Source: a virus. From it: a stretch of DNA of 64,000 nt. The stretch spans positions 50,095 through 114,094 of IMG/VR virus record IMGVR_UViG_3300021961_000037; one strand, 5' to 3'. The notes below the pieces were generated by a model that saw only the letters and a list, made by a program, of their open reading frames with translations, was not told the origin of the DNA and made no database searches. Below, piece by piece: positions 33,905 to 49,586 of this stretch. The position numbers and the translations under genes are program-made. The first letter of the stretch is position 1, and the number at the start of each line of letters is the position of its first letter.

Positions 33905-34438
33905 GTGCTTCAATTATTCGAAGACCTATTAGACCCGGATTATGCAAAAACTATTGAAAAAACAATGCTGTCAAACGCATTCCCATACTATTTCTTCGCC
34001 GACATTGATTATGGGAAAGGCAATGATGTTTATAACTTTGGATTTTCCCACACATTCGTTGACCAGTTTGCCGAATCACGAAGTGATTTTTTAGAACTTG
34101 TTTTGCCTGTTGCTTTTGCAATCGGTGATGCACTTGATCTGAAACTTACGCAACTTATACGAATTCGTGGGGTTATGTTGACACCAATTGGCATCGGATA
34201 CAACCATGTCCGACATACGGACTTGGCCAGTGACCCAGACTCATTGACTGCCGTGTACTATGTGAACGATTCGGATGGGGCGACCACCATATACAACGGA
34301 GAAGATGTAGTGAGTGTCAATCCAAAGCAAAACAGTGCTGTCGTATTTGATACACATATGGAACATCATGGTGCAAAACCCGTAAAAACAGCATCACGGG
34401 TGGTTTTGAATATAAACTTCAGAGGTGAACCACAATGA
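33905..34438 (+). CDS. 2OG-Fe(II) oxygenase, prolyl-hydroxylase-like (1)
   Basis: A 177-residue protein, GTG start. The double-stranded beta-helix motif is complete: H104-T-D106 in HVRHTDLASDP, distal His at 154 or 155 (HMEHHGAKP), and R165 for 2-oxoglutarate. The strands AVYYVNDSDGATTIYNG and SAVVFDT fit the P4H-like fold. Such enzymes hydroxylate Pro, Lys or other side chains using O2, Fe(II) and 2-oxoglutarate. It follows adhesin genes and overlaps the next oxygenase by four bases. Confidence 0.8.
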   Translation: MLQLFEDLLDPDYAKTIEKTMLSNAFPYYFFADIDYGKGNDVYNFGFSHTFVDQFAESRSDFLELVLPVAFAIGDALDLKLTQLIRIRGVMLTPIGIGYNHVRHTDLASDPDSLTAVYYVNDSDGATTIYNGEDVVSVNPKQNSAVVFDTHMEHHGAKPVKTASRVVLNINFRGEPQ

Positions 34439-35049
34439 CTTCCAAACCCATTATTGAGCAGTGGTTCCCTAAACCTTTATATATTGTGAATGACTTCATG
34501 GTCGATGAGTTGGTGATGTATAAAAAATGGTTATACGAACTGTTTTCTTTAAATGATGACATGAAGAGGACGGAAGAATTAAATGTAAATAGCACGCATA
34601 ACATGACAACTCTTCATACGCAGGATATTTTCAGGAACTTGTCAAACGAGATAACGAAGAATGCAACTCAATTCGTGAGAATGCTCGGGTATTCTGGCGA
34701 CCTTTTCATTAACAACATGTGGGCTAATCATGTTGTCAAGGGTGAATACTTATTCCCCCACAACCATCCGAACAGCATGTTGAGCGGCGCCTACTATGTT
34801 GAGTCTGACCACCCCGAAGATGTAATCAAATTTTACGATAATCCCATGAACATGCTTCCTGCGCCAGACGAGTACACATCACTTAGTTACGATTATTGTG
34901 CATACAGATGCCAGCCTGGAAGACTGATTCTCTTTAAGAGCGATTTCATTCATGGCTGCCCTGCCCTAAAAGGGGAAAGCAAAATTGTGATGTCTTTCAA
35001 TATTGGGTTTGTCGGTTCTTTTGATTTTGAGGTCACCAAACCCGCATAA
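34435..35049 (+). CDS. 2OG-Fe(II) oxygenase, HxH family (2)
   Basis: A 204-residue protein. The motif FPHNHPNSMLSGAYYVES (H109, H111), the distal H173 in SDFIHGCPALKGES, and K183 are the signs of the second family of phage 2OG-Fe(II) oxygenases (the type named 2OG-FeII_Oxy_5), seen often in cyanophages. Coupled to the previous oxygenase by an ATGA overlap. Substrate unknown. Confidence 0.75.
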   Translation: MTSKPIIEQWFPKPLYIVNDFMVDELVMYKKWLYELFSLNDDMKRTEELNVNSTHNMTTLHTQDIFRNLSNEITKNATQFVRMLGYSGDLFINNMWANHVVKGEYLFPHNHPNSMLSGAYYVESDHPEDVIKFYDNPMNMLPAPDEYTSLSYDYCAYRCQPGRLILFKSDFIHGCPALKGESKIVMSFNIGFVGSFDFEVTKPA

Positions 35050-35120
35050 AACTCAATGAGTATTTGCCCCAAATCACCTTAACTGCTAGTTTATTTCAAA
35101 TCAAATACATCTAAATGGTG

Positions 35121-35126
35121 TAAAAT
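35121..35126 (+). promoter_or_regulatory. -10-like TAAAAT in AT-rich gap
   Basis: The 108-base gap 35050-35157 is AT-rich and carries no gene. TAAAAT at 35121-35126 is about 30 bases before the start at 35158. No clear -35. A restart of transcription for the last fibre genes is plausible. Confidence 0.35.
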
Positions 35127-35157
35127 TAGGTAACTTCTGATTTGTTTGGAGACCCAG

Positions 35158-35334
35158 TTGAGTATCGCATTTCCGAGCGCCCCTTCCAACGACCAAGAAT
35201 TCATTGCCGCGGGGAAAGCATGGACATGGAACGGCTCACGGTGGCTCAGGTCTGAATACTCCATAATTGATGGTGGCAATTCGGGAAGTGAACAGAATAC
35301 CGCAAAATATATTTACGACGGTGGGACGGCATAA
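35158..35334 (+). CDS. Short fibre protein of the W-x-W-N-G type (copy 4)
   Basis: A 58-residue protein. TTG at 35158 is preferred to TTG 35146 because GGAG (35148-35151) is six bases upstream and the product then starts M-S-I-A-F-P-S-A-P like its paralogues (MAIDFPNSP, MPIDFPGSP). It contains KAWTWNGSRWLRSE and ends YIYDGGTA. An Mtd-N-headed fibre follows by three bases. Confidence 0.55.
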   Translation: MSIAFPSAPSNDQEFIAAGKAWTWNGSRWLRSEYSIIDGGNSGSEQNTAKYIYDGGTA

Positions 35335-35337
35335 CTT

Positions 35338-37494
35338 ATGACAGTTCGCAGAATACGACTAAGACGAGATACTGCTTCGGCGTGGACCTCTGCTAACCCA
35401 ACCCTTGCGCTTGGTGAAATTGCATGGGAGTCGGACACATCCAAGATAAAAATAGGTGACGGTACTACTGCATGGACTTCCCTTGCCTATTACAATGCCT
35501 CACTCAACAGCATTGGCGATGTTACGATTACTGACGTAGCCAACGGCGACTTTTTGCGTTGGAACGGTTCGGCATGGATTAATGACGCCGTAAACCTGTC
35601 AACGGACACGGTCGGCGATTTTGTCCAATCCCTTGTGGCGGGTACTGGTGTTACCGTTTCCAATAACAGTGGAGAAGCAGCCACACCAACAATTCAAATT
35701 GGGCAAGCCGTCGGCACGACAGACAATGTAACTTTCAATACCGTCACCGCCGATCTCACCGGTGATGTAACCGGAAATGCAGACACCGCAACAACTCTAG
35801 AGACGGCAAGAACAATCTCGCTCGGCGGGGACCTGAGCGGCTCAGCATCGTTTGACGGTTCAGCAGACATAACGATTACCGCCACGATAAGTGCCGACTC
35901 AACAGTCCTTGGCACTGATACAACTGGAGATTACGTTGAGTCACTTGTCGCAGGTACTGGCGTAACTCTCACAAACAACACAGGCGAGGGGGCAACCCCT
36001 ACGGTTGCAATCGGCCAAGCAGTCGAAACCACAAGCGATGTCACATTCAATACCGTCACCGCCGACTTGACGGGCAACGCCGACACTGCGACGACCCTTG
36101 AGACTGCTCGCACCATCTCGCTTGGTGGAGATTTGTCGGGCTCAGCATCATTTGATGGCTCGTCCGACGTCACAATAACTGCAACCATCGGTGCTGACTC
36201 TGTTGCCCTGGGTACCGACACGACTGGAAACTATGTTTCCGATGTAACTGGCGGAACAGGCGTAACGGTAACACATACTCCGGGTGAAGGTTCGAGCCCG
36301 TCAGTTGCCATTGGTCAGGCTGTTGGAACTGCAGATGATGTCACATTCAATACGGTGACTGCAGATTTGACTGGCGATGTCACAGGCAATGCTGACACAG
36401 CAACCACACTTGAAACCGCCAGAACAATTTCTCTCGGTGGTGACCTTTCGGGGTCTGCCTCGTTTAACGGTTCTGCAGATGTCACAATCACGGCGACGAT
36501 TGGCGCTGACTCGGTTGCACTTGGCACTGACACAACTGGCGACTACGTTGGTTCGCTCGTTGCTGGCACGGGTGTCACCTTGTCCAACAACTCTGGTGAG
36601 GGAGCCACACCAACGGTCGCCATCGGTCAGTCGGTAGGAACATCCGATAGCCCAACCTTTGCTGGAGCGACATTGGATGCAGTACAAGTTGGAATCACGG
36701 CAGCGGGAGAGATTGACACCGCCTCGGGCAACTTGACCATTGACTCTGCTGGTGGCACGGTAACCGTTGACGACAATTTGGTTGTAACAGGAGATTTGAC
36801 GGTTTCGGGAACGACCACAACGGTCAACACCGAAACTATCAACCTTGCCGACAATATCATCACCCTAAACAGCAATGAAACTGGTACTCCGAGTCAGAAT
36901 GCCGGTCTTGAAGTAGAGCGTGGAACATCGGCAAATGTTGAGTTGCGCTGGAACGAGACAAGCGATAAATGGGAATTGACAGAAGATGGAAGCACCTATT
37001 ACGACATTGCGACAGAATCCTATGTTGATGCGCAGTCCATTGCTTCACTTGATGATGTCGGCGATGTCACGATTACCTCTGCGGCTTCGGGCGAGTTCCT
37101 CAAGTGGAACGGCTCGGCGTGGGTAAATGATTCAATTCCAACAATCAACACGCTTGATGATGTCGGCGACGTCACGATTACCTCGGCGGCTTCGGGTGAG
37201 TTCCTTAAGTGGAACGGTAGTGCATGGGTAAACGATTCAATTCCGACAATCAACACGCTTGATGACGTCGGCGACGTAACGATTACATCGGCAGCGTCTG
37301 GCGACTTTCTCAAGTGGAATGGTTCTGCGTGGGTCAATGACCCAATTAACCTCGGCACGGACACCACTGGCAACTATATGGTCAATGTTTCTGCCGGAGA
37401 CGGAATAAATGTTTCACACACACAGGGTGAGGGTTCAACAGCAACAATATCCGCAAGGGATACTTTGGTAAGGTTCTACATGGAGGTCATCTGA
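35338..37494 (+). CDS. Repeat tail fibre with Mtd-N-like head (718 residues)
   Basis: Head: RRIRLRRDTASAWTSANPTL, IKIGDGTTAWTSLAYY. Then a shaft of the same ~100-residue repeats as the giant fibre (five (L/S)TDT motifs by my count), the TGTPSQNAGLEVERGTS module, and near the end three nearly identical 35-residue modules (LDDVGDVTITSAASG). It ends soon after HTQGEGSTATISARDTLV. It looks like a shorter mosaic of the giant fibre at 16122 on another head. Probably an alternative side fibre. Confidence 0.8.
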   Translation: MTVRRIRLRRDTASAWTSANPTLALGEIAWESDTSKIKIGDGTTAWTSLAYYNASLNSIGDVTITDVANGDFLRWNGSAWINDAVNLSTDTVGDFVQSLVAGTGVTVSNNSGEAATPTIQIGQAVGTTDNVTFNTVTADLTGDVTGNADTATTLETARTISLGGDLSGSASFDGSADITITATISADSTVLGTDTTGDYVESLVAGTGVTLTNNTGEGATPTVAIGQAVETTSDVTFNTVTADLTGNADTATTLETARTISLGGDLSGSASFDGSSDVTITATIGADSVALGTDTTGNYVSDVTGGTGVTVTHTPGEGSSPSVAIGQAVGTADDVTFNTVTADLTGDVTGNADTATTLETARTISLGGDLSGSASFNGSADVTITATIGADSVALGTDTTGDYVGSLVAGTGVTLSNNSGEGATPTVAIGQSVGTSDSPTFAGATLDAVQVGITAAGEIDTASGNLTIDSAGGTVTVDDNLVVTGDLTVSGTTTTVNTETINLADNIITLNSNETGTPSQNAGLEVERGTSANVELRWNETSDKWELTEDGSTYYDIATESYVDAQSIASLDDVGDVTITSAASGEFLKWNGSAWVNDSIPTINTLDDVGDVTITSAASGEFLKWNGSAWVNDSIPTINTLDDVGDVTITSAASGDFLKWNGSAWVNDPINLGTDTTGNYMVNVSAGDGINVSHTQGEGSTATISARDTLVRFYMEVI
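37051..37365 (+). repeat. Three tandem copies of a 105-bp fibre module
   Basis: Copies start at 37051, 37156 and 37261, each coding DDVGDVTITSAASG(E/D)FL followed by KWNGSAWVND. They are nearly identical in DNA, unlike the older repeats of the shaft, which points to recent duplication. Confidence 0.8.
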
Positions 37495-37495: not shown

Positions 37496-37858
37496 ATGTC
37501 ATTGACACAAAAACGACTGGTTGGTCCAACCCAACTCACGACGACGACAAGCACGGTCCTATACACCGTGCCGCAAAGCACGACGACCATCGTGAAGCAG
37601 ATTATCCTCTGCAACACGACTGGTTCTGCAGTAACCGTGACGCTGGTTTGCAAGCCGTTGAACGTCGCTCAGGCTTCTTCGCAGAACTTCTTCAACACCC
37701 TGTCGGTTGGGGCAAACGAAACATTGACCTTCCAAACCAACTTGGTTCTGACAAACAACGGAAGCACAGCAAACGCAACGAACAGTGACCAAATCATTGG
37801 TTCCGCAAGTGCAAACACCGCCATCAACATCATCATGAACGGAGTCGAAGAAGCGTAA
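37496..37858 (+). CDS. Small beta-rich tail protein (family C, copy 5)
   Basis: A 120-residue protein: TQKRLVGPTQLTTTTSTVLY, TIVKQIILCNTTGSAVTVTL, VGANETLTFQTNLVLTNNG, ending INIIMNGVEEA. Fits the same plan as copies 2 and 3. Starts one base after the fibre stop and shares a base with the next start (TAATGG). Confidence 0.6.
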   Translation: MSLTQKRLVGPTQLTTTTSTVLYTVPQSTTTIVKQIILCNTTGSAVTVTLVCKPLNVAQASSQNFFNTLSVGANETLTFQTNLVLTNNGSTANATNSDQIIGSASANTAINIIMNGVEEA

Positions 37859-38595
37859 TGGTCGCTAGTTTTGTTCGCCTGAACAACTCGTCACTTTCGA
37901 CAGCAGAGTCAACATCAAGCATTTCTGGCTCGCTGGTGAATTTGGCAAGTTATCTGAACCTTCCAGACCCTGTCTATGGGACTGGAGCGGATGGCGACGC
38001 AACCATTTCGGCTGACACCACGCTGACAAGCGACAAGTTCTACAAGAACCTCACGATTAACGCCAACATAAAACTAAACCCAGGCGGGTACAGAATATTC
38101 GTACAGAATGTTTTGACCCTAAACAGCGGTTCGGAGATTGGCTACACCACTGGATTTTCCACGGCTGGGACTCTCGCTCAAGGCGGAGCAACAAATACGG
38201 CAGTTACGCACAGCCTTGGTGGTTCTAGTGGCGCACAGACGGCGACTGCGCCAACGGCCGCCCTTGGTGGTTCTGCGTACTACCAGCAGCCCCTACAAGC
38301 GATTCGTGGCTGGGCGGTAACAGCAGCCTCAACTACTCCGACGTTCTTGCGTGGTGGTGCTGGCGGCTCGTCTGGCGCTGGTGGCGGAGTTGTTCTTATT
38401 TCGGCTCGCTATATCACCGTTTCTTCGGGTACTGCGTATTTCAAGGCGCCTGGAACTGCTGGTTCCGGTGGCGGTGGTGGCGGGGTCATTCTTGTTGTTT
38501 CCTCTGCGTCGGTACTTAATGCAAGTGTTTCCACTGATGTAACTGGAGGAACTGGCGCATCGGCTGGCACGGTGAACTACATGCAGGTGGCGTGA
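37858..38595 (+). CDS. Tail adhesin with parallel-strand head (paralogue of 38597)
   Basis: A 245-residue protein. The head YGTGADGDATISADTTLTSD, FYKNLTINANIKLNPGGYRI and FVQNVLTLN is a short beta-solenoid-like domain found in many phage tip proteins. Then a Gly-rich part (FLRGGAGGSSGAGGG, APGTAGSGGGGGG) with strands GVVLISARYITVS and GVILVVSSASVLN. Head and plan are shared with the next gene. Confidence 0.7.
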   Translation: MVASFVRLNNSSLSTAESTSSISGSLVNLASYLNLPDPVYGTGADGDATISADTTLTSDKFYKNLTINANIKLNPGGYRIFVQNVLTLNSGSEIGYTTGFSTAGTLAQGGATNTAVTHSLGGSSGAQTATAPTAALGGSAYYQQPLQAIRGWAVTAASTTPTFLRGGAGGSSGAGGGVVLISARYITVSSGTAYFKAPGTAGSGGGGGGVILVVSSASVLNASVSTDVTGGTGASAGTVNYMQVA

Positions 38596-38596
38596 C

Positions 38597-39673
38597 ATGG
38601 CATTTGAGAGGCTTGGAGCAGACAGGAATCCCGTACAGAAGACGGGAACCGACAAATTGTTCGGTGCTGGCAGCGACGGAACAGTAACCATCTCCACGAA
38701 CACGTCGCTTTCACGCGACATGTATTACGCCAACCTCACTGTGAACTCTGGAATCACGCTTTTTACCAACGGATTCAAGATTTTTGTTAGCGGGAACTTG
38801 GTAAACGACGGCACAATAGGAATGCCTACTGGAACAGCACAGACGACTTCGGTCATGGCAGGAACGACCATGACGAGAATTGACGGTAATGCTGGGTATG
38901 TTTCGGGCGATGCCTTGTCGGGAACAATGACGATTGCCGAGGTCCGTGACATTGAAGCGCTTGTCACGGGCGTAATGCAAAAAGGTGCCACGCGAAGGGT
39001 GTGGTGGTCTGGTGCTACTGGAACTGCTGGCACTAGCGGAACCGCAAACCCCGGTGGTGGCGGAAATGCAACTGCTGGTACTGCGGGAACTGGTGGTTCG
39101 GCAGGTCAGGGCGGTGGCTCCGTTGTCGTTCTCGCCAAGTCAATTAGTGGGTCTGGAACATTTGTGAGCGAAGGAACTGCTGGAACTTCGGGAAATCCAG
39201 GAACCGCTGGAAGCAACGCACCGGGAAACCCAGGGCATAACCCCGGCGGGCATGCTGGCGCACATAATCCTGGCGGTCATGCACAAGGACATAACCCCGG
39301 CGGAACTGGCCATAACCCACCCGGTCACTTCCATCACCCCGGTCACCATCAGGCGCCGAATTGCGGAGTCCATGAAGTTTGGGGCTGCTCGCATCATCAC
39401 CCCGGTCACCACAACCCCGCGCACCAACACACAAACCCTGGAAACTCCTTCTCACATCCAGGAAACCCATTCCACTACTCACATCCAGGAAACCCATTCC
39501 ATTACAGTCACCCCGGCAACCCGTTCCACAACCCATCTTATTCTGGTGGCACTGCCAACCCAGGAAATGCAGGAAACCCAGGAAATGCTGGAAGTCTCGT
39601 TGTTTTGACCCGAGGAATCACTACCCATGTCGCAACCTCCAACTTGACATACGTGGAGGACCTAGATGACTAA
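38597..39673 (+). CDS. Histidine-rich X-Pro-Gly tail adhesin
   Basis: A 358-residue protein. Residues 1-140: beta-solenoid-like head (FGAGSDGTVTISTNTSLSRD, YYANLTVNSGITL) as in the gene before. Residues 140-210: Gly/Thr/Ala-rich strand pair with GGGSVVVLAKSISG. Residues 211-311: an extreme region of NPGGH, HNPGG and HPGH motifs, two Cys (256, 264) and three tandem HPGNPFHYS units; I count 25 His in residues 214-311. Residues 312-358: NPGNAG repeats and a final beta strand. The X-P-G triplets look like collagen-type or polyproline/polyglycine helices, the His could bind metal, and the prolines are possible targets of the nearby prolyl-hydroxylase-like enzymes (inference). Confidence 0.75.
   Translation: MAFERLGADRNPVQKTGTDKLFGAGSDGTVTISTNTSLSRDMYYANLTVNSGITLFTNGFKIFVSGNLVNDGTIGMPTGTAQTTSVMAGTTMTRIDGNAGYVSGDALSGTMTIAEVRDIEALVTGVMQKGATRRVWWSGATGTAGTSGTANPGGGGNATAGTAGTGGSAGQGGGSVVVLAKSISGSGTFVSEGTAGTSGNPGTAGSNAPGNPGHNPGGHAGAHNPGGHAQGHNPGGTGHNPPGHFHHPGHHQAPNCGVHEVWGCSHHHPGHHNPAHQHTNPGNSFSHPGNPFHYSHPGNPFHYSHPGNPFHNPSYSGGTANPGNAGNPGNAGSLVVLTRGITTHVATSNLTYVEDLDD
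39455..39529 (+). repeat. 27-bp tandem repeat coding HPGNPFHYS
   Basis: Two full and one partial copy (starts 39455, 39482, 39509). They encode the His/Pro/aromatic end of the adhesin. Differences between copies are few and mostly silent. Confidence 0.75.
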
Positions 39674-39680
39674 TATCGAC

Positions 39681-39686
39681 TATAAT
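39681..39686 (+). promoter_or_regulatory. -10-like TATAAT before the small gene at 39738
   Basis: TATAAT 52 bases before ATG 39738, just after the adhesin stop. TTGACA at 39644 is 31 bases upstream, too far for a normal spacer. Could begin the transcript of the enzyme island. Confidence 0.35.
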
Positions 39687-39737
39687 GGTAATGTCAACAG
39701 TGCAGTAACAAACGCAAGTTATTGGAGGATACCTAGG

Positions 39738-39974
39738 ATGCCATACGATTTTTCAAGCCTTTCAGCAGATGACGTTGCACAGGCAAAAGCCCGTGTAAAA
39801 AAGGAACTTGAGCGACAGATGTACGAGGCAACCCTCAAACTGGAACTCAACCCCGCGACATATGACTACGATGCCCACACCATTCCGGAAGACGAGTTTG
39901 CGCCGGGATATGCGTACAAACTGCAGATTTCTGCATGTTTGAGCCAAATTGCCTTCATTAATGGCATGGAGTAA
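39738..39974 (+). CDS. Small helical hypothetical protein
   Basis: A 78-residue protein (MPYDFSSLSADDVAQAKARV...), charged and helical, with GGAGG at 39724-39728. An in-frame ATG at 39666 with its own GGAGG would add 24 residues and overlap the adhesin stop; I prefer 39738 because a -10-like element lies between the two. No family recognised. Small helical proteins of this kind are common at the end of fibre blocks. Confidence 0.55.
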   Translation: MPYDFSSLSADDVAQAKARVKKELERQMYEATLKLELNPATYDYDAHTIPEDEFAPGYAYKLQISACLSQIAFINGME

Positions 39975-39996
39975 ACCTCTGGTTTGCTAGTCTTTT
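39973..39996 (+). terminator. Possible weak terminator before the enzyme island
   Basis: AAACC (39973-39977), loop TCT, GGTTT (39981-39985), then a run of five T at 39992-39996. The stem is short, so this is only a candidate. Confidence 0.3.
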
Positions 39997-39999
39997 TGC

Positions 40000-40602
40000 A
40001 TGGACCATACAGAACTAGCGCCTTGCCTTGTCTTGTTCGAGGACGTTTTCAAGCCCGGTAACTTCATTGAGTTGCTTGAGGCTGAATGTCAACAGCAGTG
40101 GGGGTATCTGTCGTGGTACCTCACAACCGTTGGGCAGGGTCAAACACGGGTTGAGTACAGGTCATCTCTTGCGTGTGAACTTGGGGCATTGGGTCAACCG
40201 CTAAATGAAATAGCGGAACCGCGAATAATGCCGCTAGCAGAAAAATGGCACGACATTCACAATGACCTGCAAAAGTGTATATGGTCGTATAGAAACATGT
40301 ACGACATTGACGTAAAAGAAGACGAAGGAATGACGGTGCTCAAGTACAGCAAGGGTGCAGAGTACCGAGGACATGTTGACCACGCTCCGTCAAACCAAAG
40401 AGTTTTTAGCATCGTTGCGTTCGCAAATGACAACTTTGACGGAGGTGAATTGACATTCCCGATATTTGATGTGACAGTAAAGCCAAAGGCTGGAAGTGCG
40501 GTTTTGTTTCCTTCAAACTTCCCGTATTTCCACTACGCGCAGGCTGTCGGTTCAACGAACAACACAGACACCAAGTACTCATTTGTAACTTGGTTTAGGT
40601 AG
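40000..40602 (+). CDS. 2OG-Fe(II) oxygenase, prolyl-hydroxylase-like (3)
   Basis: A 200-residue protein. Motif YRGHVDHAPSNQRVFSIVAF gives H125-x-D127. The strand FDGGELTFP and the stretch KAGSAVLFPSNFPYFHYAQAV give the distal H178, and K192 in TKYSFVTWFR is the likely 2-oxoglutarate anchor. All P4H landmarks are present. It begins the enzyme island and is four bases from the halogenase start, so they are co-translated and may serve one pathway. Confidence 0.85.
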   Translation: MDHTELAPCLVLFEDVFKPGNFIELLEAECQQQWGYLSWYLTTVGQGQTRVEYRSSLACELGALGQPLNEIAEPRIMPLAEKWHDIHNDLQKCIWSYRNMYDIDVKEDEGMTVLKYSKGAEYRGHVDHAPSNQRVFSIVAFANDNFDGGELTFPIFDVTVKPKAGSAVLFPSNFPYFHYAQAVGSTNNTDTKYSFVTWFR

Positions 40603-40606
40603 ACCG

Positions 40607-42070
40607 ATGCTGCCGAGGGTATGCATTGTAGGTTCTGGAACCTCCGGATTGGTTACCGCCTTGATGTTGAGGGCGTTTTTCCCCAACATCAAGGTGACGG
40701 TTATATCTTCCAAAGACATCGGGATAATTGGTGTCGGCGAGGGTTCTACTGAGCACTGGCGTCATTTTTTTCAGCAGCCATGCGATATAGACGCTGGAGA
40801 GATGGTTGCCCGGTGCGCCGCCACCCATAAATACGGAATCAAATTTGAGGGCTGGACTACACACACTCCAATCTATTACCACAGCATTAGCGGAGAGGGT
40901 CACGGACCAAATAACTTTAACGCTGTTTACTCTTTCGCCCACTTCAACGACTGGTTGCTAACGCCATCAATGATTCCACACCTGGATAATGACATGGTTG
41001 TAGATGACGTCAAGCAACCCCATGGCACCACAAATCAGTTTCACTTTGACACTCATAAACTAAACAACTTTTTGACGTATCTTGCCGAAAAACGTGGCGT
41101 AACATTTGGCGACGGGAAGATTGTAAAAATTGACAGGAATTCAGAAACGGGTTTTATTGAGTCGGTAACAACTGACACAAACATTAAGTGCGAGGCAGAT
41201 TTCTTCGTTGATGCAAGCGGATTTGCAAGAGTGCTGATGAGTAAACTTGTTGAAAACGATGAGTTTGTCAGTTACAGAAAATACCTGCCGTGCGACTCAG
41301 CAGCCGTGTTCCAGACGGAATCTGACCCATCTGGGAAAATCCACCCATATACGAGGGCTCGCGCGATGCCGCATGGCTGGATGTGGGAAATACCGACACA
41401 GGAGCGCAGAGGAAACGGCTATGTATTTGCCTCAGATTTCTGCTCCGACGAGCAGGCAGTCAAGGAACTGTCCGAGGCTCATGGTAGGGACATAGAGCCG
41501 GCAAGAATAATTAGATTCAAGTCTGGCTACTACAAGCACGGTATTGCATTTAACTGTGCGGCTGTCGGTCTTTCTAGTTCATTTGTGGAACCGCTTGAGG
41601 CGACCGCAATAAGCACCAGCATTCAGCAATCACGCATGATTGCGGCAATTTTGCCGACCTTCATGCGTGGCAATAAGGCACAAACAAAGAACTATCAGCA
41701 ACGCTACGAAAGTTTGCTTGAAAATATTGTCACGATGATTTCTCTCCACTACATCTCGGATAGAAATGATTCAGAGATGTGGAAGGCGCAACAACATGCC
41801 GAACTTCCGGAAACACTGAAGGTGCTCCTCGAATTGTGGAAGGAGAGAATGCCCGAAAAATACGATGTTCCGCATTTCGGGTATGAACTGTTTCTTTCAG
41901 AGCATCTTTGGCATGTTGCACAGGGTCAAGGAGTTCTTGATAAGTCTGTTGCCCTGGACCAATTAAACGCCTACTGCTCACATGACCCGTGTGCAAAAAT
42001 TTTCTCCTCCAAAAAACTGCAGGCAGCAGCAACAAGGAAAATTGACCATGCGCTTCTCTATAAGGCGTAA
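40607..42070 (+). CDS. Flavin-dependent (tryptophan-type) halogenase
   Basis: A 487-residue protein, full length for the family. FAD site: GSGTSG (9-14) in the first beta strand-helix; GVGEGST (42-48). The likely catalytic Lys is K75 in CAATHKYGIKFEGW. The halogenase signature W-x-W-x-I-P is present as WMWEIP (258-263), and the conserved Glu motif as VEPLEATAIS. These enzymes use FADH2, O2 and halide to make HOX, which halogenates an aromatic substrate held near the Lys. A flavin reductase is needed and none is seen, so a host reductase would supply FADH2. A cyanophage halogenase (VirX1) is known. Neighbouring oxygenases suggest a joint modification pathway, substrate unknown. Confidence 0.85.
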   Translation: MLPRVCIVGSGTSGLVTALMLRAFFPNIKVTVISSKDIGIIGVGEGSTEHWRHFFQQPCDIDAGEMVARCAATHKYGIKFEGWTTHTPIYYHSISGEGHGPNNFNAVYSFAHFNDWLLTPSMIPHLDNDMVVDDVKQPHGTTNQFHFDTHKLNNFLTYLAEKRGVTFGDGKIVKIDRNSETGFIESVTTDTNIKCEADFFVDASGFARVLMSKLVENDEFVSYRKYLPCDSAAVFQTESDPSGKIHPYTRARAMPHGWMWEIPTQERRGNGYVFASDFCSDEQAVKELSEAHGRDIEPARIIRFKSGYYKHGIAFNCAAVGLSSSFVEPLEATAISTSIQQSRMIAAILPTFMRGNKAQTKNYQQRYESLLENIVTMISLHYISDRNDSEMWKAQQHAELPETLKVLLELWKERMPEKYDVPHFGYELFLSEHLWHVAQGQGVLDKSVALDQLNAYCSHDPCAKIFSSKKLQAAATRKIDHALLYKA

Positions 42071-42908
42071 ATCGCCAACGGTTAAGCCTGGAATCTGGGA
42101 AAACCTTCCAGTCCCAAAACCAAACCAGTTATTTGCCGCCCCTGTTGACAATCGTTTGTGGCATCCGAAATTGGCGATTAGACCATCTCGCTCCAAAACA
42201 CCTGAATGGTTTAAGGATATTCCGCAAGGCGAGGCGAGCCTCAAGCGATGCTACGGGGTTGCAGACTATCTAAGAACTGGATACGTGGTTCCGATGTGGG
42301 CGACGTTGGACGTAAGAATGCCCCTAAATAAATTGGATAAAAGATGGGAAGCACGTTTTGATATACCAGCGTCCCATCTATTTACCGCAGAGATAGCAAC
42401 CGACCTTTCCGAGCAAGACAATAACTACTACTTTAGTTATGAATCATTGATGCGAAATCAATTTCCGATTCACCAAACGGGGAGTGAGTGCCCGGTTGCA
42501 AAACAAAAAAACCGCGAGTCTTCATACCTAAAATTACCAAGTCCCTGGGTGGTGAGAACTGCGCCCGGATGGTCCTCCCTCTTCCTGCCAACCCTCTGGG
42601 AGCCAAATGATGACTATGAGGTTCTTGGAGCCGTGGTGCATACGGATTACTATCCGAACGCCAACTGTGTAATAAACATAAAGACAAACAGACCGCTAAG
42701 GATTGAGGAGGGAACAATCATGCAACACATAATCCCCTTCAAGCGAGACGCATCAATCTTGGAGACAGAGGTAATACGAGGAGACCAAACCGCCCATACA
42801 CTGTTGAGGGATACTGGATTCGGTCCAGTTTTCACAACAAAAGAAGACACGCACGGCGGGTACAAAAAAGAACAACGCAGAATGGATGGATTGGTTTCTG
42901 ATGTATAG
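42048..42908 (+). CDS. Conserved hypothetical protein, DUF6065-like
   Basis: A 286-residue protein; ATG 42048 (MRFSIRRKSPTVKPG) with AAGGA before it, overlapping the halogenase end by 23 bases. Segments LKLPSPWVVRTAPGWSSLFLPT, VVHTDYYPNANCVIN and EEGTIMQHIIPFKRD recall a family of unknown function found beside oxygenases and aminotransferase-like genes in phages and bacteria (my recollection is DUF6065). It looks like a beta-sandwich. Possible role: substrate carrier or binding partner for the oxygenases/halogenase; no catalytic residues can be named. Confidence 0.6.
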   Translation: MRFSIRRKSPTVKPGIWENLPVPKPNQLFAAPVDNRLWHPKLAIRPSRSKTPEWFKDIPQGEASLKRCYGVADYLRTGYVVPMWATLDVRMPLNKLDKRWEARFDIPASHLFTAEIATDLSEQDNNYYFSYESLMRNQFPIHQTGSECPVAKQKNRESSYLKLPSPWVVRTAPGWSSLFLPTLWEPNDDYEVLGAVVHTDYYPNANCVINIKTNRPLRIEEGTIMQHIIPFKRDASILETEVIRGDQTAHTLLRDTGFGPVFTTKEDTHGGYKKEQRRMDGLVSDV

Positions 42909-43353
42909 AGTCATATTTTGCCCTCAAGAAAAACCAGTTGAAGATGCCTACGACATGGCAAAAGAGTGGGGGTTGTCCATACAGCACGGTGACTCGGCGC
43001 GCACCGAGGACATGGAGTTTGACAGGACGGAAGTGCAAGTTCTCTCCATTCCAATTCAGCGCGGATTTGATGCGGAAAGAATTGAGTGTTTGGTCAATAT
43101 GCCGGTGTCGGTAAAGTACTCAAACGATTGGGACGACGTTTCTGATTACACATTTCTACTGCGCCCAACTGGTATGCGTGTCGGCAAAACCAACTGGGGT
43201 GTCCCATCGATACTTATGGACAAACATAGGGCGGTAATGAACATTGCCGTTAGTTTCCCTGGCTCATACGAACTTGTCTCTGTCAAGGATGGAGTAGATA
43301 GAGAAATATCCGAGTTTATAGCGATGGAGCGCGAAGGGGAATATCCAGAGTGA
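42901..43353 (+). CDS. Hypothetical protein of enzyme island
   Basis: A 150-residue protein starting MYRVIFCPQEKPVEDAYDMA at 42901; ATG 42886 is also possible. Alpha/beta with KYSNDWDDVSDYTFLLRPTG and an acidic end. Its start overlaps the previous stop and its stop overlaps the next GTG, so it is part of the same translation chain as halogenase and oxygenases. No family recognised. Confidence 0.55.
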   Translation: MYRVIFCPQEKPVEDAYDMAKEWGLSIQHGDSARTEDMEFDRTEVQVLSIPIQRGFDAERIECLVNMPVSVKYSNDWDDVSDYTFLLRPTGMRVGKTNWGVPSILMDKHRAVMNIAVSFPGSYELVSVKDGVDREISEFIAMEREGEYPE

Positions 43354-44057
43354 TTGAATTTATCGGTCACAAATCAACACACATAGCAGTAGTCCCAGAC
43401 ATAATTCCTCCTGACTTGTGCAATGGCTTGATTGATGCATGCAAGCGCGACTGGAATTCTTTGTTTTACCAAGGCCCGACACTTTCTGGTGTGGATACAT
43501 CAATTAAGTACACGATGGATTTTGACTTCAGCGGGAAACAAGCACAGGAAAAAGGTTGTGATTACGACCTTTACAAAAATTACGAAGACAGAATCACGCA
43601 ATGCCTGTGGACCGCAGTATCTCTTTACGTTGAGGCGTATTCAGAAATGCGGGCTGCCCCAGGATTGTGGGATACCGGATATCGTCTTCAGACCTACAAG
43701 CAAGGAACTGGATATTATCGGTCGCACCACGACGGCGCGCCTTGGGACCCAGAACCGACAAGTCTTCGCGTGTTGGGTGTAGTGATGTATTTGAATACTG
43801 TTGAGCGTGGAGGAGAAACCGGCTTCCCTATCCACGACCTCAAAGTAAAGGCTAATGCTGGCTCAATAGCCCTTTTCCCAGCATCTTGGACACATCCTCA
43901 TCAGTCATGTGTTCCTGTTTCTTGCGACAAATGGATAATTAGCACCTTCATCGTATCTAATCGACGCCAGCCGACAATTAACGAACCAAGCCAACAAGTT
44001 CCAGTTACGGTCATTGACACCAATCCAGAGAATCAGGGAAATGAGGAGGGAACATGA
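43350..44057 (+). CDS. 2OG-Fe(II) oxygenase, prolyl-hydroxylase-like (4)
   Basis: A 235-residue protein, GTG start (GTGA overlap). Metal motif YYRSHHDGAPWD with H126-x-D128; strands VLGVVMYLNTVERGGETGFP; then NAGSIALFPASWTHPHQS with distal His at 182 or 184, and K194 in CDKWIISTFI. This is a canonical P4H-like arrangement. The last ~30 residues are a Pro/Glu-rich tail without structure. Overlaps the next oxygenase by four bases. Confidence 0.85.
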   Translation: MIEFIGHKSTHIAVVPDIIPPDLCNGLIDACKRDWNSLFYQGPTLSGVDTSIKYTMDFDFSGKQAQEKGCDYDLYKNYEDRITQCLWTAVSLYVEAYSEMRAAPGLWDTGYRLQTYKQGTGYYRSHHDGAPWDPEPTSLRVLGVVMYLNTVERGGETGFPIHDLKVKANAGSIALFPASWTHPHQSCVPVSCDKWIISTFIVSNRRQPTINEPSQQVPVTVIDTNPENQGNEEGT

Positions 44058-44704
44058 AATCCAAGTTCCCCCTAGTCATAAAGCAACTTGTTCCAAGCGC
44101 TGAAGTCCGAAAATTCATATCCGACACACAAGGCAGTCAAAGAACAGTCAAAAGCACTGGGTGGGGTCGTGCCACCAATGACATACCGATAATAAAAGAC
44201 ATGTCAACCCAAACTATTGGTGGTTCGTTTTGGGACATTATGTATTCTTGCGCCAAGGAGCACTTTGGTGAAACGGCGCTCCCTTCATACTGGAAGTGGT
44301 CTCGCTATTCGCCAAAATACGGGGCGCCGAATATTCCACCACACATTGACATAAATGCGTGTACTTACACAATTGATTTGCAGTTGATGGGGGATGTTGA
44401 GTGGGAGATATTTGTTGAAGGGACACCATACACAATGCAAGACGGTGACGCCCTTTTATACCTTGGCTCTGAGCAAATGCATTGGCGACCCAAATACCCG
44501 AATCGCAACTATAAATCATTCTTGGAAATGTGTTTTATTCATTTTGTTGAACCCGGGCACTGGTATCACGAAAATGGTCCAAAGTGGATAGATTCAGATG
44601 ATGTGAGATTGCCGTGGAGAGAGAAAATGATGCATTTGCTGCCAAAATATAAGTGCGACACATATCAGCCATTTGAGGACCCAACTGAATTTCCCGGGTA
44701 CTAG
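44054..44704 (+). CDS. 2OG-Fe(II) oxygenase-like protein (5)
   Basis: A 216-residue protein. NIPPHIDINACTYTIDLQL gives H97-x-D99, and GDALLYLGSEQMHWRP gives the distal H143; the 2-oxoglutarate anchor could be R151 or K154. Overall layout is a double-stranded beta-helix, but the flanks differ from the P4H type, so the substrate may be different (small molecule or protein surface). Coupled to the previous gene. Confidence 0.7.
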   Translation: MKSKFPLVIKQLVPSAEVRKFISDTQGSQRTVKSTGWGRATNDIPIIKDMSTQTIGGSFWDIMYSCAKEHFGETALPSYWKWSRYSPKYGAPNIPPHIDINACTYTIDLQLMGDVEWEIFVEGTPYTMQDGDALLYLGSEQMHWRPKYPNRNYKSFLEMCFIHFVEPGHWYHENGPKWIDSDDVRLPWREKMMHLLPKYKCDTYQPFEDPTEFPGY

Positions 44705-44713
44705 GATTACCAG

Positions 44714-45466
44714 ATGGCAAATAACAAAATCACTGTTTACTGGTCCCCATCACACGCACTGGGAAGCCAGTATGAGTACAATCACCTCTACCCGTTCCCT
44801 GACTCTCTATATCAGGAGTTGGCACCGCTCAAGGCTGACCTAAAAGAAAACCGGGATGATTTTCTGAGGTGTCCAGCAGTAGGCAACAAAATGAAGAAAA
44901 CATTTGTGTTTAGGTCCTCCACAGATACGCATGTGAAGATTGTTGACGGACAGTACGTATCGTATTGGGTCAACTCGGAAGACGACAAACGGCGTCATCA
45001 AACCACGGTTGAACTGCTTCATTCCCCAACTCTTTTGAATCATTTTTTGTTGAACTACCTACATCCGGTTATTTTTTTTACGGATGTTGATTCATTGATT
45101 ATGTCTCTTACTCCGCCGTATTTTCACAAAACAACCCATTCGCAATACGGTGCAATCGTTCCTGGGGAGTTTGACATTGCTTCATGGTTTCGACCAATAA
45201 ATTTTGAATTTCAACTATGGGAGGGAGTTGACGAACTAATCGTTCCTGCTGGCGAGCCGTTGGGGTATGTGGATTTCCATACGAGCAGTCAGGTTGAATT
45301 GCGCAGGTTTAACATGACTCAAAATTTAAAGAAGATATCAAGTTCGCTTGTTCACGTCTCGCCTCACCGAAGGTATGCAAAGTTGTCTGAGAAGTACAAG
45401 TTGTTCCGCAATGCCCGCATATCCCAAGGAATCCTCAGAGAGATACGCGACAACCTTGTTGGCTAG
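44714..45466 (+). CDS. Conserved hypothetical protein of enzyme island
   Basis: A 250-residue protein. Beta-rich middle: VIFFTDVDSLIMSLTPPYF, GEFDIASWFRPINFEFQLWE, DELIVPAGEPLGYVDFHTS. The order 'body, PxG(E/T)P(L/I)xxxxF' is similar in style to the protein at 42048, so both could be distant relatives with the same fold. Last + strand gene before the minus-strand block. Function unknown. Confidence 0.55.
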   Translation: MANNKITVYWSPSHALGSQYEYNHLYPFPDSLYQELAPLKADLKENRDDFLRCPAVGNKMKKTFVFRSSTDTHVKIVDGQYVSYWVNSEDDKRRHQTTVELLHSPTLLNHFLLNYLHPVIFFTDVDSLIMSLTPPYFHKTTHSQYGAIVPGEFDIASWFRPINFEFQLWEGVDELIVPAGEPLGYVDFHTSSQVELRRFNMTQNLKKISSSLVHVSPHRRYAKLSEKYKLFRNARISQGILREIRDNLVG

Positions 45467-45673: not shown

Positions 45674-46429
45674 TTAGCACTCGCCAAACGGGATTTTTGC
45701 GCTTTGCCGTATTCTTGAAATAACAGGTTCTACGGTGTTCCATTTAATGTTAGTCCCCCATGTTGAAGATATTGTGTATCTCGTGCATCCACCTATTTGG
45801 GTGACGCCGTGCAAGTGGTTGTTATCGGGGTCGTGCGCAAAAACCTTGCCTTTTTGGGGAATCATTGATTTTTCAAAAAATGGGTAAAATGTTTCTCCCC
45901 CAGAGTAATCATCATTCAAATAGATAACAGAACCGCATATTCTGTCCATTCCGTCAACATGGTCAATGTGTGTCATCTGATAACTTCCGGGCTCCCATCT
46001 GACTATTCCAATTTGGTCACAATACACATTTTCCCCATCGGCAAGTTGTTTACTGAATAAATCACGCAGACGATCATGTATGTCAATTACTAGTTTTTTA
46101 TATTTAGAATCTTGGTCATCGGACAGCATTGATTCACATAACAGTGGGGTATTTCTATCTTCCCAGAAACCAAAAGTTTGTTTTTTGGTGAGCCAAGCGT
46201 TTTTTGTTTTTGCACGATTAATCAAATAATCGCATTCTTCTGCTGACAAAAAATTTTCTTGCTCTACGCCTTTGAATGTTATTTCTTCGAATTTTGGCGC
46301 ATAACCGTATTCATATGTGTGTAAATGTTTCTTTAGATATTTTATGCTGAATGGTCTATTAGTTTTTGTGTCTACATAGCGAATAAAGTTTTGGTACTCG
46401 GCGGTTGATTTATCGGAAAAATCAAACAT
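45674..46429 (-). CDS. 2OG-Fe(II) oxygenase, prolyl-hydroxylase-like (6)
   Basis: A 251-residue protein. Residues 50-90 include NFLSAEECDYLINRAKT, the usual first helix of P4H-like enzymes. Metal motif MTHIDHVDGMDR gives H154-x-D156; strand SVIYLNDDYSGGETFYPFF; then FAHDPDNNHLHGVTQIGG with distal H207 and R217 in CTRYTISSTW. All catalytic positions are present. Its ATG directly follows the stop of the degenerate relative upstream. Confidence 0.85.
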   Translation of the reverse strand: MFDFSDKSTAEYQNFIRYVDTKTNRPFSIKYLKKHLHTYEYGYAPKFEEITFKGVEQENFLSAEECDYLINRAKTKNAWLTKKQTFGFWEDRNTPLLCESMLSDDQDSKYKKLVIDIHDRLRDLFSKQLADGENVYCDQIGIVRWEPGSYQMTHIDHVDGMDRICGSVIYLNDDYSGGETFYPFFEKSMIPQKGKVFAHDPDNNHLHGVTQIGGCTRYTISSTWGTNIKWNTVEPVISRIRQSAKIPFGEC

Positions 46430-47002
46430 TTATCTAACCACTGGTTGCTCCGGCTGCTGGCACGCCTGCATGTAGTTGTGCATTTTGGAGATGTCTTCCC
46501 TGTAGGTTTCTTGTGTATTGTCAAAACTCCACAATGATGAAATCACAAATATATCTTGGTTGGATAAATATGTAATGCCGTATTGTTCCGCATTTGTTAT
46601 TTCATCCGCTAAAACGCTACCAACATTTGGATAAAGTTTGTTCTTGTTGTTTTCAAGAATGATTTGATGATTGTCTGGTGCGCTTATGAATACGGCACAG
46701 TGAGCGCTGTCGTCTGGTTGATTAATGCAATATGTTGAAAGTATGTTTTTATTTTTCTCGTTCACCTTGAGAATGTCCATTTTTGTGCAGAACATTTCCT
46801 TACTAAACGATTTACCCATAAACTCTTTTGTTTTTGCGTGAGTTCTGAGTATCAGTTGGACTGTATGTTGCGACGAGTACTTTCTTATCGGCAACATTTT
46901 GAAAAATGAAAGGGTGTCATCGACCCATACATTTTCCGCTTCACATAACCAAACCAGATAATCACATTCTTCCGTGCTAAGCATGTGTTCCTTGAAATAC
47001 AT
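46430..47002 (-). CDS. Degenerate 2OG oxygenase paralogue
   Basis: A 190-residue protein. The start (MLSTEECDYLVWLCEAENVW) and the end (GSVLADEITNAEQYGITYLS, IFVISSLWSFD) line up with the neighbouring oxygenase at 45674, where the same places read LSAEECDYLINRA, HLHGVTQIGG and YTISSTW. The H-x-D motif is gone (TYCINQPDD region) and the distal His and the Arg are replaced. It is likely catalytically inactive and may act as a partner subunit, or be decaying. The reading frame is intact, which argues for a kept function. Confidence 0.55.
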   Translation of the reverse strand: MYFKEHMLSTEECDYLVWLCEAENVWVDDTLSFFKMLPIRKYSSQHTVQLILRTHAKTKEFMGKSFSKEMFCTKMDILKVNEKNKNILSTYCINQPDDSAHCAVFISAPDNHQIILENNKNKLYPNVGSVLADEITNAEQYGITYLSNQDIFVISSLWSFDNTQETYREDISKMHNYMQACQQPEQPVVR

Positions 47003-47026
47003 AAAAGACCGTACACCTCGTACTGG

Positions 47027-47254: not shown

Positions 47255-47266
47255 GTGCTTACATTA

Positions 47267-47527: not shown

Positions 47528-47556
47528 GTTGTCTCCTAATATTTGAACTTATGTTA

Positions 47557-48276
47557 TCAGCAAGCGATGTAAGTGTTATTCCATGCACCCCAATCGGTGA
47601 ATGCTGGGCAACTGCATGTGGTGCAAGCCCCAGAGCAACCTGTTCCACTTGCACCACTTGCACCGCATGAGCCGTCATACGAAGTTCCGTATCTGTACCT
47701 CAGGCTGAAACCTGGCCCGTTGCAATCTTCTTGGTAAACAGTTGTCCCAACACAGCAGACACAGCCCGGCAGTGGTGGCGGCGCCGTATAGCCACATACG
47801 CCATCTCGGTATGCTCCGTTGTATCCTCCGGTTCCTGGGCATGTCTGGCTACATCCACAGTCATAGTATTGGTACGAGAGTGTGCCGTCACATGTATATC
47901 CAACGTATGAACAGTTGTTCGGCCACGGTTCTGGAGCGCACGAACATGGCGGTGGCGGCGGTGGTGGCGGTGGTCCAGGTGCCACGGGTGTTACGGAGTT
48001 TGAAGCACTGGATGTTTTACTTACTCCATATCCAGTCACTGTTGTTACCGTAAATGTATACGCTGTGCCATTTGACAAACCGCTCACGGTTATGGGTGAA
48101 GATGCCCCAGAACCTGTTGCTCCGCCAGGGCTCGCCGTCACAACATATGTTGCATTACCTTTTCCATCGTAGGCGGGGAGAGTGAAAGAAACAGTTGCTT
48201 GACCATTCCCAGCCGATGCGCTTACGGATGTTGGAGAATCAGCGTATTTGCCTCCACCTGAAAAACCAGGAATCAT
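47557..48276 (-). CDS. FnIII / poly-Pro / Cys-rich adhesin
   Basis: A 239-residue protein. Residues about 13-98 form a fibronectin type III domain (SVSASAGNGQATVSFTLPAY, YVVTASPGG, LSNGTAYTFTVTTV). Residues 102-110 are nine Pro in a row. Residues 111-239 are Cys-rich: I count 18 Cys, in pairs such as CSC, CGC, CVCC, CTTCSC, with repeated Y-D-G and R-Y-R-Y. Such a tip could be held by disulfides and bind host surface sugars or proteins. The gene follows a fibre gene with a one-base overlap, so it is probably a tail tip protein. Confidence 0.65.
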   Translation of the reverse strand: MIPGFSGGGKYADSPTSVSASAGNGQATVSFTLPAYDGKGNATYVVTASPGGATGSGASSPITVSGLSNGTAYTFTVTTVTGYGVSKTSSASNSVTPVAPGPPPPPPPPPCSCAPEPWPNNCSYVGYTCDGTLSYQYYDCGCSQTCPGTGGYNGAYRDGVCGYTAPPPLPGCVCCVGTTVYQEDCNGPGFSLRYRYGTSYDGSCGASGASGTGCSGACTTCSCPAFTDWGAWNNTYIAC

Positions 48277-48983
48277 TATGCGCTCAAATCACCAACGAGA
48301 ACCCATGTATCAGTTGCCCTCTTGATAAGAGTTGCTGCAGACCATTGTGTACGCAGTTTCAAGCCTGGGGTGCCATTTACAGTAACCCCACCGGAACCAG
48401 CAACGGTTACTTGCCCTGCGCCGGTTTGCAAAAGATCAATTCTATCCCCGACAGCAAATGCGACAGAACTGTTTGATGGGACGGTCAGCGTGATAGAGGA
48501 AGCATTATTGAGTTCAACCAGTTTTGACAAGTCAGTCAATACGAGTGTGTATGTTGTCCCAGTCTGAGGATTTTGCACAGACCTGAAACCTGCTTGTGGC
48601 GTGCCTGTGCCCAGTTTTGTTTGAGTTACAGCCCCAGAACCGATTGTTGTGGCGCCAGTGTTGGTGATTGTTACATCGCCAGACATGTTTACTGATGTCG
48701 GGGAACCACCGCTGCTGAATACAACGATTTGACCAGATGTTCCAGAAAGCGAAATGCCAACCTCAACCCATGAACTTCCGTTATAAACATAGACCTTGTT
48801 GTCTGAGTCAAGGTACGCCAAACGCCCTTCCGAAAGGGTCGGCTCCCCCAGTCCGCCAAACGAAGCGTCACGGGTAGCAGCGTCTGGGAAGCGTGCAACG
48901 ACCTGATCCATCAGGTATCCGTTAACTTGGGATGCGGTTAAAACGCTCCCTGCCGTGAAAAGTCTTACGCCTGCGCCAGCCAT
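48276..48983 (-). CDS. Tail fibre protein (minus-strand block)
   Basis: A 235-residue protein, ATG at 48983 with GGGAG five bases upstream. Head: RLFTAGSVLTASQVNGYLMD and DQVVARFPDAATRDASFGG; then a short shaft (GDVTITNTGATTIGSGAVTQ); C-terminal domain SSITLTVPSNSSVAFAVGDR, IDLLQTGAGQVTVAGSGGV, TLIKRATDTWVLVGDLSA. That C-terminal domain is very common in phage fibres, where it may bind carbohydrate. It leads the minus-strand operon that continues into adhesin and oxygenase genes. Confidence 0.75.
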   Translation of the reverse strand: MAGAGVRLFTAGSVLTASQVNGYLMDQVVARFPDAATRDASFGGLGEPTLSEGRLAYLDSDNKVYVYNGSSWVEVGISLSGTSGQIVVFSSGGSPTSVNMSGDVTITNTGATTIGSGAVTQTKLGTGTPQAGFRSVQNPQTGTTYTLVLTDLSKLVELNNASSITLTVPSNSSVAFAVGDRIDLLQTGAGQVTVAGSGGVTVNGTPGLKLRTQWSAATLIKRATDTWVLVGDLSA

Positions 48984-49018
48984 GAAAACTCCCAATTCTT
49001 ATGGGTAAGAGTTAAGCA

Positions 49019-49047
49019 ATTATACCCTAATTGCAGTTGCTGAATAA
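49019..49047 (-). promoter_or_regulatory. Promoter of the minus-strand fibre operon
   Basis: On the minus strand: TTATTC (49047-49042), 17-base spacer, TATAAT (49024-49019), about 35 bases before ATG 48983. The -10 is perfect, the -35 poor. Confidence 0.5.
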
Positions 49048-49055
49048 AAAGTGTT

Positions 49056-49586
49056 CTATTTGAAAGGTTTACCAGTGGCCCATGCAACGAGTGCCCATCT
49101 TGTTCCGCTGGTTATCGGTCTAACTCTATGAACCGCCCAAGACGGGAAAACTGTAGCCACCCCGCGTTCACTCGGAACAACTCTAGAAACTGGGCCATCC
49201 AGTATTTCAACTTCTCCACCTTCATATTCGGAAGGGTCGGAAAGTTGTATGGTGATCGACAGTTTTCGTTTTTTGTTGTTTACCGGCGACCAGTCCGTGT
49301 GCCAATCGTAATGGTCTCCTATTTCATATTTGAAAATTTGAAGTTGCTCCATACCCGAAAGTTCAAATTCAAGTGAATTGAGTTTCTTGAACTGTGAGAA
49401 AACAAATTGCCGCATTGATTCGGTTTCAATTTCTGTCCCTTTGACTGATCGAATCTTGTTTTGCTCAATTCCTTTAGCGTAAAAAACGGATGCTTCCTGA
49501 AGCGGTTTTTTCTGTGTTTGCGAAATAAGGTAATCGCACTCCGTTTCGGACAAAACAAGTGCACTTTGAACGCCGTCTATGAGCAT
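49056..49586 (-). CDS. 2OG-Fe(II) oxygenase, PKHD type (7)
   Basis: A 176-residue protein. LVLSETECDYLISQTQ is the first helix; GDHYDWHTDWSPVNNKKRKL gives H96-x-D98; strand ITIQLSDPSEYEGGEVEI; then GVATVFPSWAVHRVRPITSG with distal H153, and R163 in GTRWALVAWATGKPFK. This is the layout of PKHD-type hydroxylases. It lies just upstream of the fibre promoter and faces away from the giant surface protein gene, whose start is 60 bases off. Confidence 0.85.
   Translation of the reverse strand: MLIDGVQSALVLSETECDYLISQTQKKPLQEASVFYAKGIEQNKIRSVKGTEIETESMRQFVFSQFKKLNSLEFELSGMEQLQIFKYEIGDHYDWHTDWSPVNNKKRKLSITIQLSDPSEYEGGEVEILDGPVSRVVPSERGVATVFPSWAVHRVRPITSGTRWALVAWATGKPFK

Follow-up and report, generated by a model that had tools for sequence, protein, structure and literature searches.

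A recurring phage gene cassette places prolyl-hydroxylase-like oxygenases and a flavin-dependent halogenase beside a fibre gene with a variable tip

The DNA analyzed here (the window) is a 64,000-nucleotide stretch of an aquatic bacterial virus, corresponding to bases 50095-114094 of a 114,094-bp IMG/VR virus record, IMGVR_UViG_3300021961_000037. Positions 37496-45466 of the window carry the genes F1, F2 and F3, followed by genes for 2-oxoglutarate (2OG)-Fe(II) oxygenases (Oc, Od and Oe), a flavin-dependent halogenase (HAL) and the proteins D1, U1 and D2. We report that F1-F2-F3-Oc-HAL-D1, often with Od, Oe and D2, is a recurring cassette that is new here. The association between these genes is real and extends beyond what one window could reveal. 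The best single explanation is that the phage hydroxylates, and perhaps halogenates, the tip of its own fibre; we give this explanation an even chance of being correct. An earlier note on this DNA had proposed a virion-modification island made of seven oxygenases and a halogenase placed around adhesin genes. The enzyme-fibre link stands, on the basis of cassette recurrence, catalytic residues, prolyl 4-hydroxylase (P4H) relatives and co-occurrence with tip types, but modification itself is not supported in the form then stated.

The genes of the island are listed below with their positions in the window. Counts out of 68 refer to non-redundant halogenase loci, each searched over eight genes from HAL.

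32664..33602, plus strand: Gly-rich fibre/adhesin (Gly_rich_2), group 1; PF21722 4.9e-15, phrog_2295 1.2e-28
33599..33895, plus strand: uA, small gene between the Gly-rich fibre and an oxygenase; homologues similarly placed elsewhere
33905..34438, plus strand: Oa, 2OG-Fe(II) oxygenase; PF13640 7.5e-10, phrog_274
34435..35049, plus strand: Ob, 2OG-Fe(II) oxygenase-family protein; PF13759 1.1e-14, H-N-H replaces HxD
35338..37494, plus strand: repetitive tail-fibre protein; tail/fibre PHROGs, best 8.6e-36
37496..37858, plus strand: F1, small conserved cassette gene; near HAL in 47 of 68 loci
37858..38595, plus strand: F2, fibre protein with a GxDGxVTI..DMYYNNLT-type domain; 55 of 68 loci, 82% identical in L009
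38597..39673, plus strand: F3, fibre protein with a variable His/Asn/Pro/Gly tip, proposed substrate; 57 of 68 loci
39666..39974, plus strand: u, small cassette gene; 56% identical in L009, found in 11 loci
40000..40602, plus strand: Oc, 2OG-Fe(II) oxygenase of predicted prolyl-hydroxylase fold; PF13640 8.2e-13
40607..42070, plus strand: HAL, flavin-dependent halogenase; PF04820 6e-98
41982..42908, plus strand: D1, protein with a dUTPase-like beta-clip part; 55 of 68 loci, true start may lie further in
42886..43353, plus strand: U1, small conserved cassette gene; 44 of 68 loci
43350..44057, plus strand: Od, prolyl-hydroxylase-like 2OG-Fe(II) oxygenase; PF13640 2.2e-9
44054..44704, plus strand: Oe, 2OG-Fe(II) oxygenase; phrog_2954 1.9e-15
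44714..45466, plus strand: D2; phrog_17480 5.5e-24, and phrog_7084 2.9e-7, which is common to D1
45674..46429, minus strand: Of, 2OG-Fe(II) oxygenase; PF13640 5e-6, phrog_2297 5.8e-19
46430..47002, minus strand: Ox, ligand-less paralogue of Of; 20% identity over 189 residues, E 1.2e-8
47557..48276, minus strand: putative adhesin, Fn3 and Pro/Cys-rich; PF00041 1.7e-7
48276..48995, minus strand: tail-fibre/virion structural protein; phrog_8780 minor tail 1e-19
49056..49586, minus strand: Og, 2OG-Fe(II) oxygenase of PKHD/PiuC type; PF13640 2.2e-15

From F1 to D2, all genes lie on the same strand and overlap or are separated by at most 25 nucleotides. The gap between u and Oc contains a hairpin at 39970-39988 on the plus strand (AGTAAACC-TCT-GGTTTGCT) with a T-rich tail; promoter and terminator scans gave counts at or below chance level.

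The whole set is found in the same order in a 12-kb viral contig, L009 (F1-F2-F3-u-Oc-HAL-D1-U1-Od-Oe-D2, 44-82% identity). The flanks of L009 differ from those of the window, the minus-strand oxygenases beyond D2 among them. A scan of IMG/VR with two halogenases yielded at least 575 relatives, and neighbourhoods were taken from the best 80. Among the 68 non-redundant loci, the repeating order is F1-F2-F3-(U1)-Oc-(unassigned gene)-HAL-D1-(Od-Oe-D2). An oxygenase of any kind is present in 65 loci, F2 or F3 in 58, Oc in 56 and Od in 29; F2/F3, an oxygenase and D1 occur together in 46. The same enzyme and fibre families are kept together across 43-75% halogenase identity. Gene order is rearranged, with contents kept, in a marine group without HAL and in L073, L079 and L088; the latter three still have HAL, with the fibres downstream of it instead of upstream.

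At the scale of whole contigs, each of 23 contigs (64-203 kb) has a single halogenase with a PF13640 gene 8-1242 bp away. Of their 45 PF13640 genes, 33 are within 5 kb of the halogenase, as compared with 4.7 expected from random placement and a maximum of 13 in 5000 simulations. This test measures oxygenase-halogenase linkage, which is a different question from the closeness of HAL to fibres. On the 114-kb contig of the window, all five PF13640 matches fall within the 16 kb from 33905 to 49586 and none elsewhere. A phrog_23 tail sheath is matched over most of the profile in 10 of the 23 contigs, weakly and partially in 4 and not at all in 9; a missing sheath is only suggestive because the records may be fragments. 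Since the cassette is found with a phrog_23 sheath, a weakly matching sheath or no detectable sheath, it looks transferable between phages.

The eight enzyme genes named in the earlier note are intact open reading frames (ORFs) with Pfam or PHROG support. Profiles clearly support six of the oxygenases. For the seventh, Oe, the Pfam match is weak (borderline for Asp/Arg hydroxylase, 0.2) but the PHROG match and invariant ligands are clear. Oc and Od both contain the HxD/E...H iron triad and a basic 2OG residue. In 78 relatives of Oc, H125 is found in 78, D127 in 76, H178 in 75 and K192 in 70 (R in 7). In 43 relatives of Od, H126, H184 and K194 are invariant and position 128 is D in 37 and E in 6. 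Similarly, H97, D99, H143 and R145 of Oe are invariant in 18 relatives, as are H104, D106, H154 and R165 of Oa in a 7-row alignment. Metal ligands had been claimed for all seven oxygenases; a correction concerns Ob, which has the motif F-P-H109-N-H111 where the canonical iron motif is HxD, yet scores 55 bits with 2OG-FeII_Oxy_5 (PF13759) against a cut-off of 27. To the seven must be added an eighth member, Ox, which has the oxygenase fold and has lost the metal ligands, the active site of its sister Of being intact. From its sequence, Ox is possibly a pseudo-enzyme. The PHROG names "DNA endonuclease V" (phrog_274, Oa) and "ferrochelatase" (phrog_2954, Oe) were rejected as misnomers because both families carry the 2OG-oxygenase triad. 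Both misnomers recur in cyanophage annotation, in L010-L015 and in deposited cyanophage records.

Comparison of the Oc profile with all solved structures gave good E-values for prolyl hydroxylases only: P4H from Bacillus anthracis (1.7e-13), PBCV-1 (8e-10) and Chlamydomonas (Cr-P4H, 9e-8), then human P4HA2 (1e-6) and PPHD (5e-5). Od also matched P4Hs and, weakly, the lysyl hydroxylase LH3. Several of these solved P4H, PHD and LH3 relatives of Oc and Od were determined with a bound peptide or protein. The AlphaFold2 model of Oc (pLDDT 93.2) predicts the double-stranded beta-helix fold of P4H/PHD enzymes. Using Foldseek, its top matches were P4H/PHD structures (best E 5.6e-10, TM-score about 0.5-0.7), headed by Cr-P4H with a (Ser-Pro)5 peptide. 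The Og profile matched the PKHD-type structure 3dkq (1.3e-15) and PiuC (9e-12). Searches of the PDB by sequence gave no relative for Oe or Oa.

HAL has the motifs of flavin-dependent halogenases, namely GxGxxG, WxWxIP and the catalytic Lys and Glu. In 91 relatives, G9, G11, G14, K75, W258, P263, E328 and E331 are invariant and W260 is found in 79 (F in 12). Solved relatives of HAL include VirX1 of cyanophage Syn10 (5.8e-33). HMMER alignments to PrnA and RebH end near residue 416 of HAL, and identity to annotated phage halogenases is about 26-37%.

The description of the neighbours as fibre- or adhesin-like is borne out by profile matches (Gly_rich_2 at 32664, tail fibre at 35338, minor tail/fibre at 48276, Fn3 at 47557), and so is their richness in Gly, Pro, His or Cys: the protein at 32664 is Gly-rich, that at 47557 has a Pro/Cys-rich tail, and F3 (358 residues) contains 16 Pro-Gly and 26 His. 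F3 proteins share an N-terminal domain, followed by a C-terminal low-complexity region that is highly variable in length and sequence; no family match was found in PHROG and Pfam searches. The tip of F3 in the window (135 residues) contains 25 His, 19 Asn, 22 Pro and 29 Gly, and the motif [HN]PG occurs 13 times, versus 1.55 in shuffled tips. Tips of near relatives carry HNPGGH- and HPGNPFH-type repeats in varying copy number, and the most extreme has 108 His in 689 residues (L041). One locus, L064, has two F1-F2-F3-U1-Oc sets (7113-8723 and 16556-18685) with very different tips, one His-rich and the other NPG/Gly-rich.

Tip type tracks the enzymes: tips are rich in His/Asn/Pro with HAL and in Tyr/Asn/Pro with an oxygenase only, and such tips are absent with neither enzyme. 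Control loci were collected, irrespective of enzymes, with a DNA pattern encoding DMYYNNLT from the domain common to F2 and F3. With HAL nearby (n=17), the tips of complete F3-type fibres contain 6.6-13.2% His and 21-35% HNPY. With an oxygenase or D1 and no HAL (12 contigs), they contain 0-3.8% His and 23-31% HNPY. With no oxygenase near (12), HNPY is 6-15%. In five contigs where no HAL was detected (L119, L122, L126, L128 and L162), Tyr/Asn tips (GYSYPGNNYSY, NYGSNPTNYGSN) stand beside two oxygenases and D1 copies. A search of whole records for 40 contigs picked for having no visible halogenase found one in 1 of the 40, where HAL, Oc, U1 and D1 adjoin F3. In L175 and L180, an oxygenase is located elsewhere in the contig and none was seen near the fibre.

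We propose that 37496-45466 may act as a fibre-maturation cassette, in which F1-F3 would be fibre or adhesin parts. Oc, Od and probably Oe would hydroxylate residues of the F3 tip in the infected cell, using host 2OG and Fe(II). HAL would halogenate side chains exposed on this tip with FADH2 from a host reductase, and D1, D2 and U1 are probably accessory proteins for presentation or scaffolding. The modified tip could be stiffer, or altered in metal or receptor binding. Halogenated His, Tyr and Trp are known from the skeletons of sponges and from natural peptides (PMC8659048). More tentatively, and with the chances somewhat against it, a transferable cassette in many aquatic phages would write hydroxylation and halogenation on their own receptor-binding fibre tip, as an oxidative and halogen-based post-translational code in which the enzyme set, with or without halogenase, corresponds to a His-rich or Tyr-rich tip.

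Several observations weigh against tip modification and bear on what else the cassette might do. On the tree of the F3 domain, the match between tips and enzymes traces to about 1-3 independent changes and the sign test is underpowered; since three changes suffice for the enzyme classes, the match is not phylogenetically replicated. The Pro-Gly sequences once suggested as a general target are few in the His/Asn- or Tyr-rich tips of many relatives. Moreover, Tyr-rich tips, the likelier target of a halogenase, belong to the group without one. Within 20-kb loci centred on HAL, other genes lie as close to a fibre gene as HAL does (26 versus 24.4 expected); the test is not significant because these loci are fibre-rich throughout. 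Few independent events and the position of HAL would fit a host-range locus whose fast-exchanging fibres collect cargo, the enzymes being carried along without modifying the fibres. In that case the low-complexity tip would be a separate adaptation, perhaps for metal binding, and His-rich tips could bind metal unaided. We consider such hitch-hiking unlikely, as the same families stay together over the range of halogenase identities given above and with differing sheaths, and oxygenase genes adjoin HAL at the whole-contig scale.

Chemistry on small molecules or host metabolism is also improbable, to a similar degree. The substrate of HAL would be an indole, a phenol or some other metabolite, in line with the in vitro activity of VirX1 from Syn10; the oxygenases would use host metabolites or draw down 2OG, a role suggested for those of cyanophages, and the fibre linkage would be an accident of genome layout. 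The solved halogenases that match HAL are indeed mostly free-tryptophan enzymes, the halogenase of P-SSM2 is located near nrdAB and not near fibres, and halogenases and 2OG oxygenases in phages are commonly classed as auxiliary metabolic genes (PMC3037559, PMC9602691, PMC10452541). However, small-molecule chemistry gives no reason to expect F2/F3 as constant neighbours, the match with tip composition or the peptidyl-prolyl hydroxylase relatives of Oc and Od. A very improbable alternative makes D1 a dUTPase-like enzyme in a cassette that hydroxylates or halogenates nucleotides or DNA. AlkB-like repair was once proposed for cyanophage 2OG genes (PMC2984593), and the AlphaFold2 model of D1 (pLDDT 87) includes a dUTPase-like beta-clip (best such Foldseek match E 5e-5, TM-score 0.42-0.65 by target length). 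This part spans only about 90 of 308 residues, and the profile shows a single dUTPase-motif-like stretch (E 0.0014) where dUTPases have five conserved motifs. The nucleotide role is kept at low probability, and for D1 a scaffold role is equally possible. No AlkB, TET or other nucleic-acid oxygenase appeared among the solved-structure matches of Oc, Od and Og. D2 had no relative in the PDB by sequence; a SapC-like identity of D1 and D2 is a speculative candidate.

Support for modification is thinner for the outer groups (33905/34435 and 45674-49586) than for the 37496-45466 cassette. The arrangement Gly-rich fibre, uA, oxygenase/HAL recurs in L052, L058, L205, L220, L235, L251, L255 and L257. 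In other contigs the 32664-35049 arrangement sometimes runs on into oxygenase/HAL arrays, and many Oa genes have no adjoining fibre in the fetched stretch. By its placement, uA is perhaps a fibre chaperone. Conservation is lower in the 45674-49586 region, where L009 carries different oxygenases, and no homologue of Og was found in L009. A 52-residue ORF at 45488-45646 (minus strand) is related to the C-terminal part of a DUF6171-like gene at 47027-47254, whose L009 homologue matches this ORF at 69% over 42 residues. The ORF is perhaps a duplication remnant.

The window as a whole contains two tRNA genes and numerous fibre genes, together with the following structural genes.

1997: tail sheath
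10742: baseplate wedge

Among deposited sequences, the enzymes find their nearest relatives mostly in cyanophages, at less than 60% identity. For a 1159-residue protein at 4769, the search of deposited phages gave no relative, and an NCBIfam search gave no match above cut-off. Next to Og, a 1208-residue protein (49622-53248) has a signal-peptide-like start, long Thr runs and no PHROG match. In L046, L052 and L058, the region downstream of the halogenase encodes signal-peptide-like proteins of 794-967 residues.

Aquatic viromes are rich in phage 2OG oxygenases and halogenases, enzymes whose genes have been assigned to auxiliary metabolism or repair. Proposed roles for the oxygenases are 2OG drawdown, DNA repair and host reprogramming (PMC3037559, PMC2984593, PMC9602691). 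The conserved pairing with one fibre family provides a concrete, testable substrate. If true, hydroxylation and halogenation of a receptor-binding protein would be written by the phage, with consequences for host range, and this would bear on employing the halogenases as biocatalysts for peptide modification. We found no report of phage fibre hydroxylation or halogenation in the open literature, subscription journals being outside the search. The earlier note overstated the rarity of so many oxygenases: they are uncommon and not unique, since cultured T4-like cyanophages usually have 1-5 such genes and cyanophage S-SCSM1 has 24 (PMC9602691).

Among known systems, Oc and Od resemble the peptidyl-prolyl 4-hydroxylases (Cr-P4H, B. 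anthracis P4H, PBCV-1 vCPH and Pseudomonas PPHD) in the HxD...H...K residues and as best sequence matches, Oc also in its predicted fold. They differ in that the fold matches have 14-22% identity and that Oc and Od are phage-encoded beside a fibre gene. HAL resembles VirX1, PrnA/RebH/PyrH and MibH in its FAD motif, WxWxIP and catalytic Lys and Glu. In Syn10, the source of VirX1, halogenase genes likewise follow Gly-rich fibre genes and precede a D1 homologue. The 2OG-Fe(II) auxiliary genes of S-SCSM1 and of the pelagiphage HTVC008M belong to the same families as those of the window. In HTVC008M, five oxygenase-type genes lie beside neck genes and one more adjoins the halogenase. In contrast, the F1-F3 cassette and His-rich tip are not described in the literature found. 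The gp38 adhesins of T4-like phages are Gly-rich, repetitive and variable distal fibre proteins; F3 differs in having no family match and a tip enriched in His, Asn and Pro. Finally, virion glycosylation by phage enzymes is a case of a phage modifying its own virion, with sugars where the proposed modification of F3 would use oxidative and halogen chemistry.

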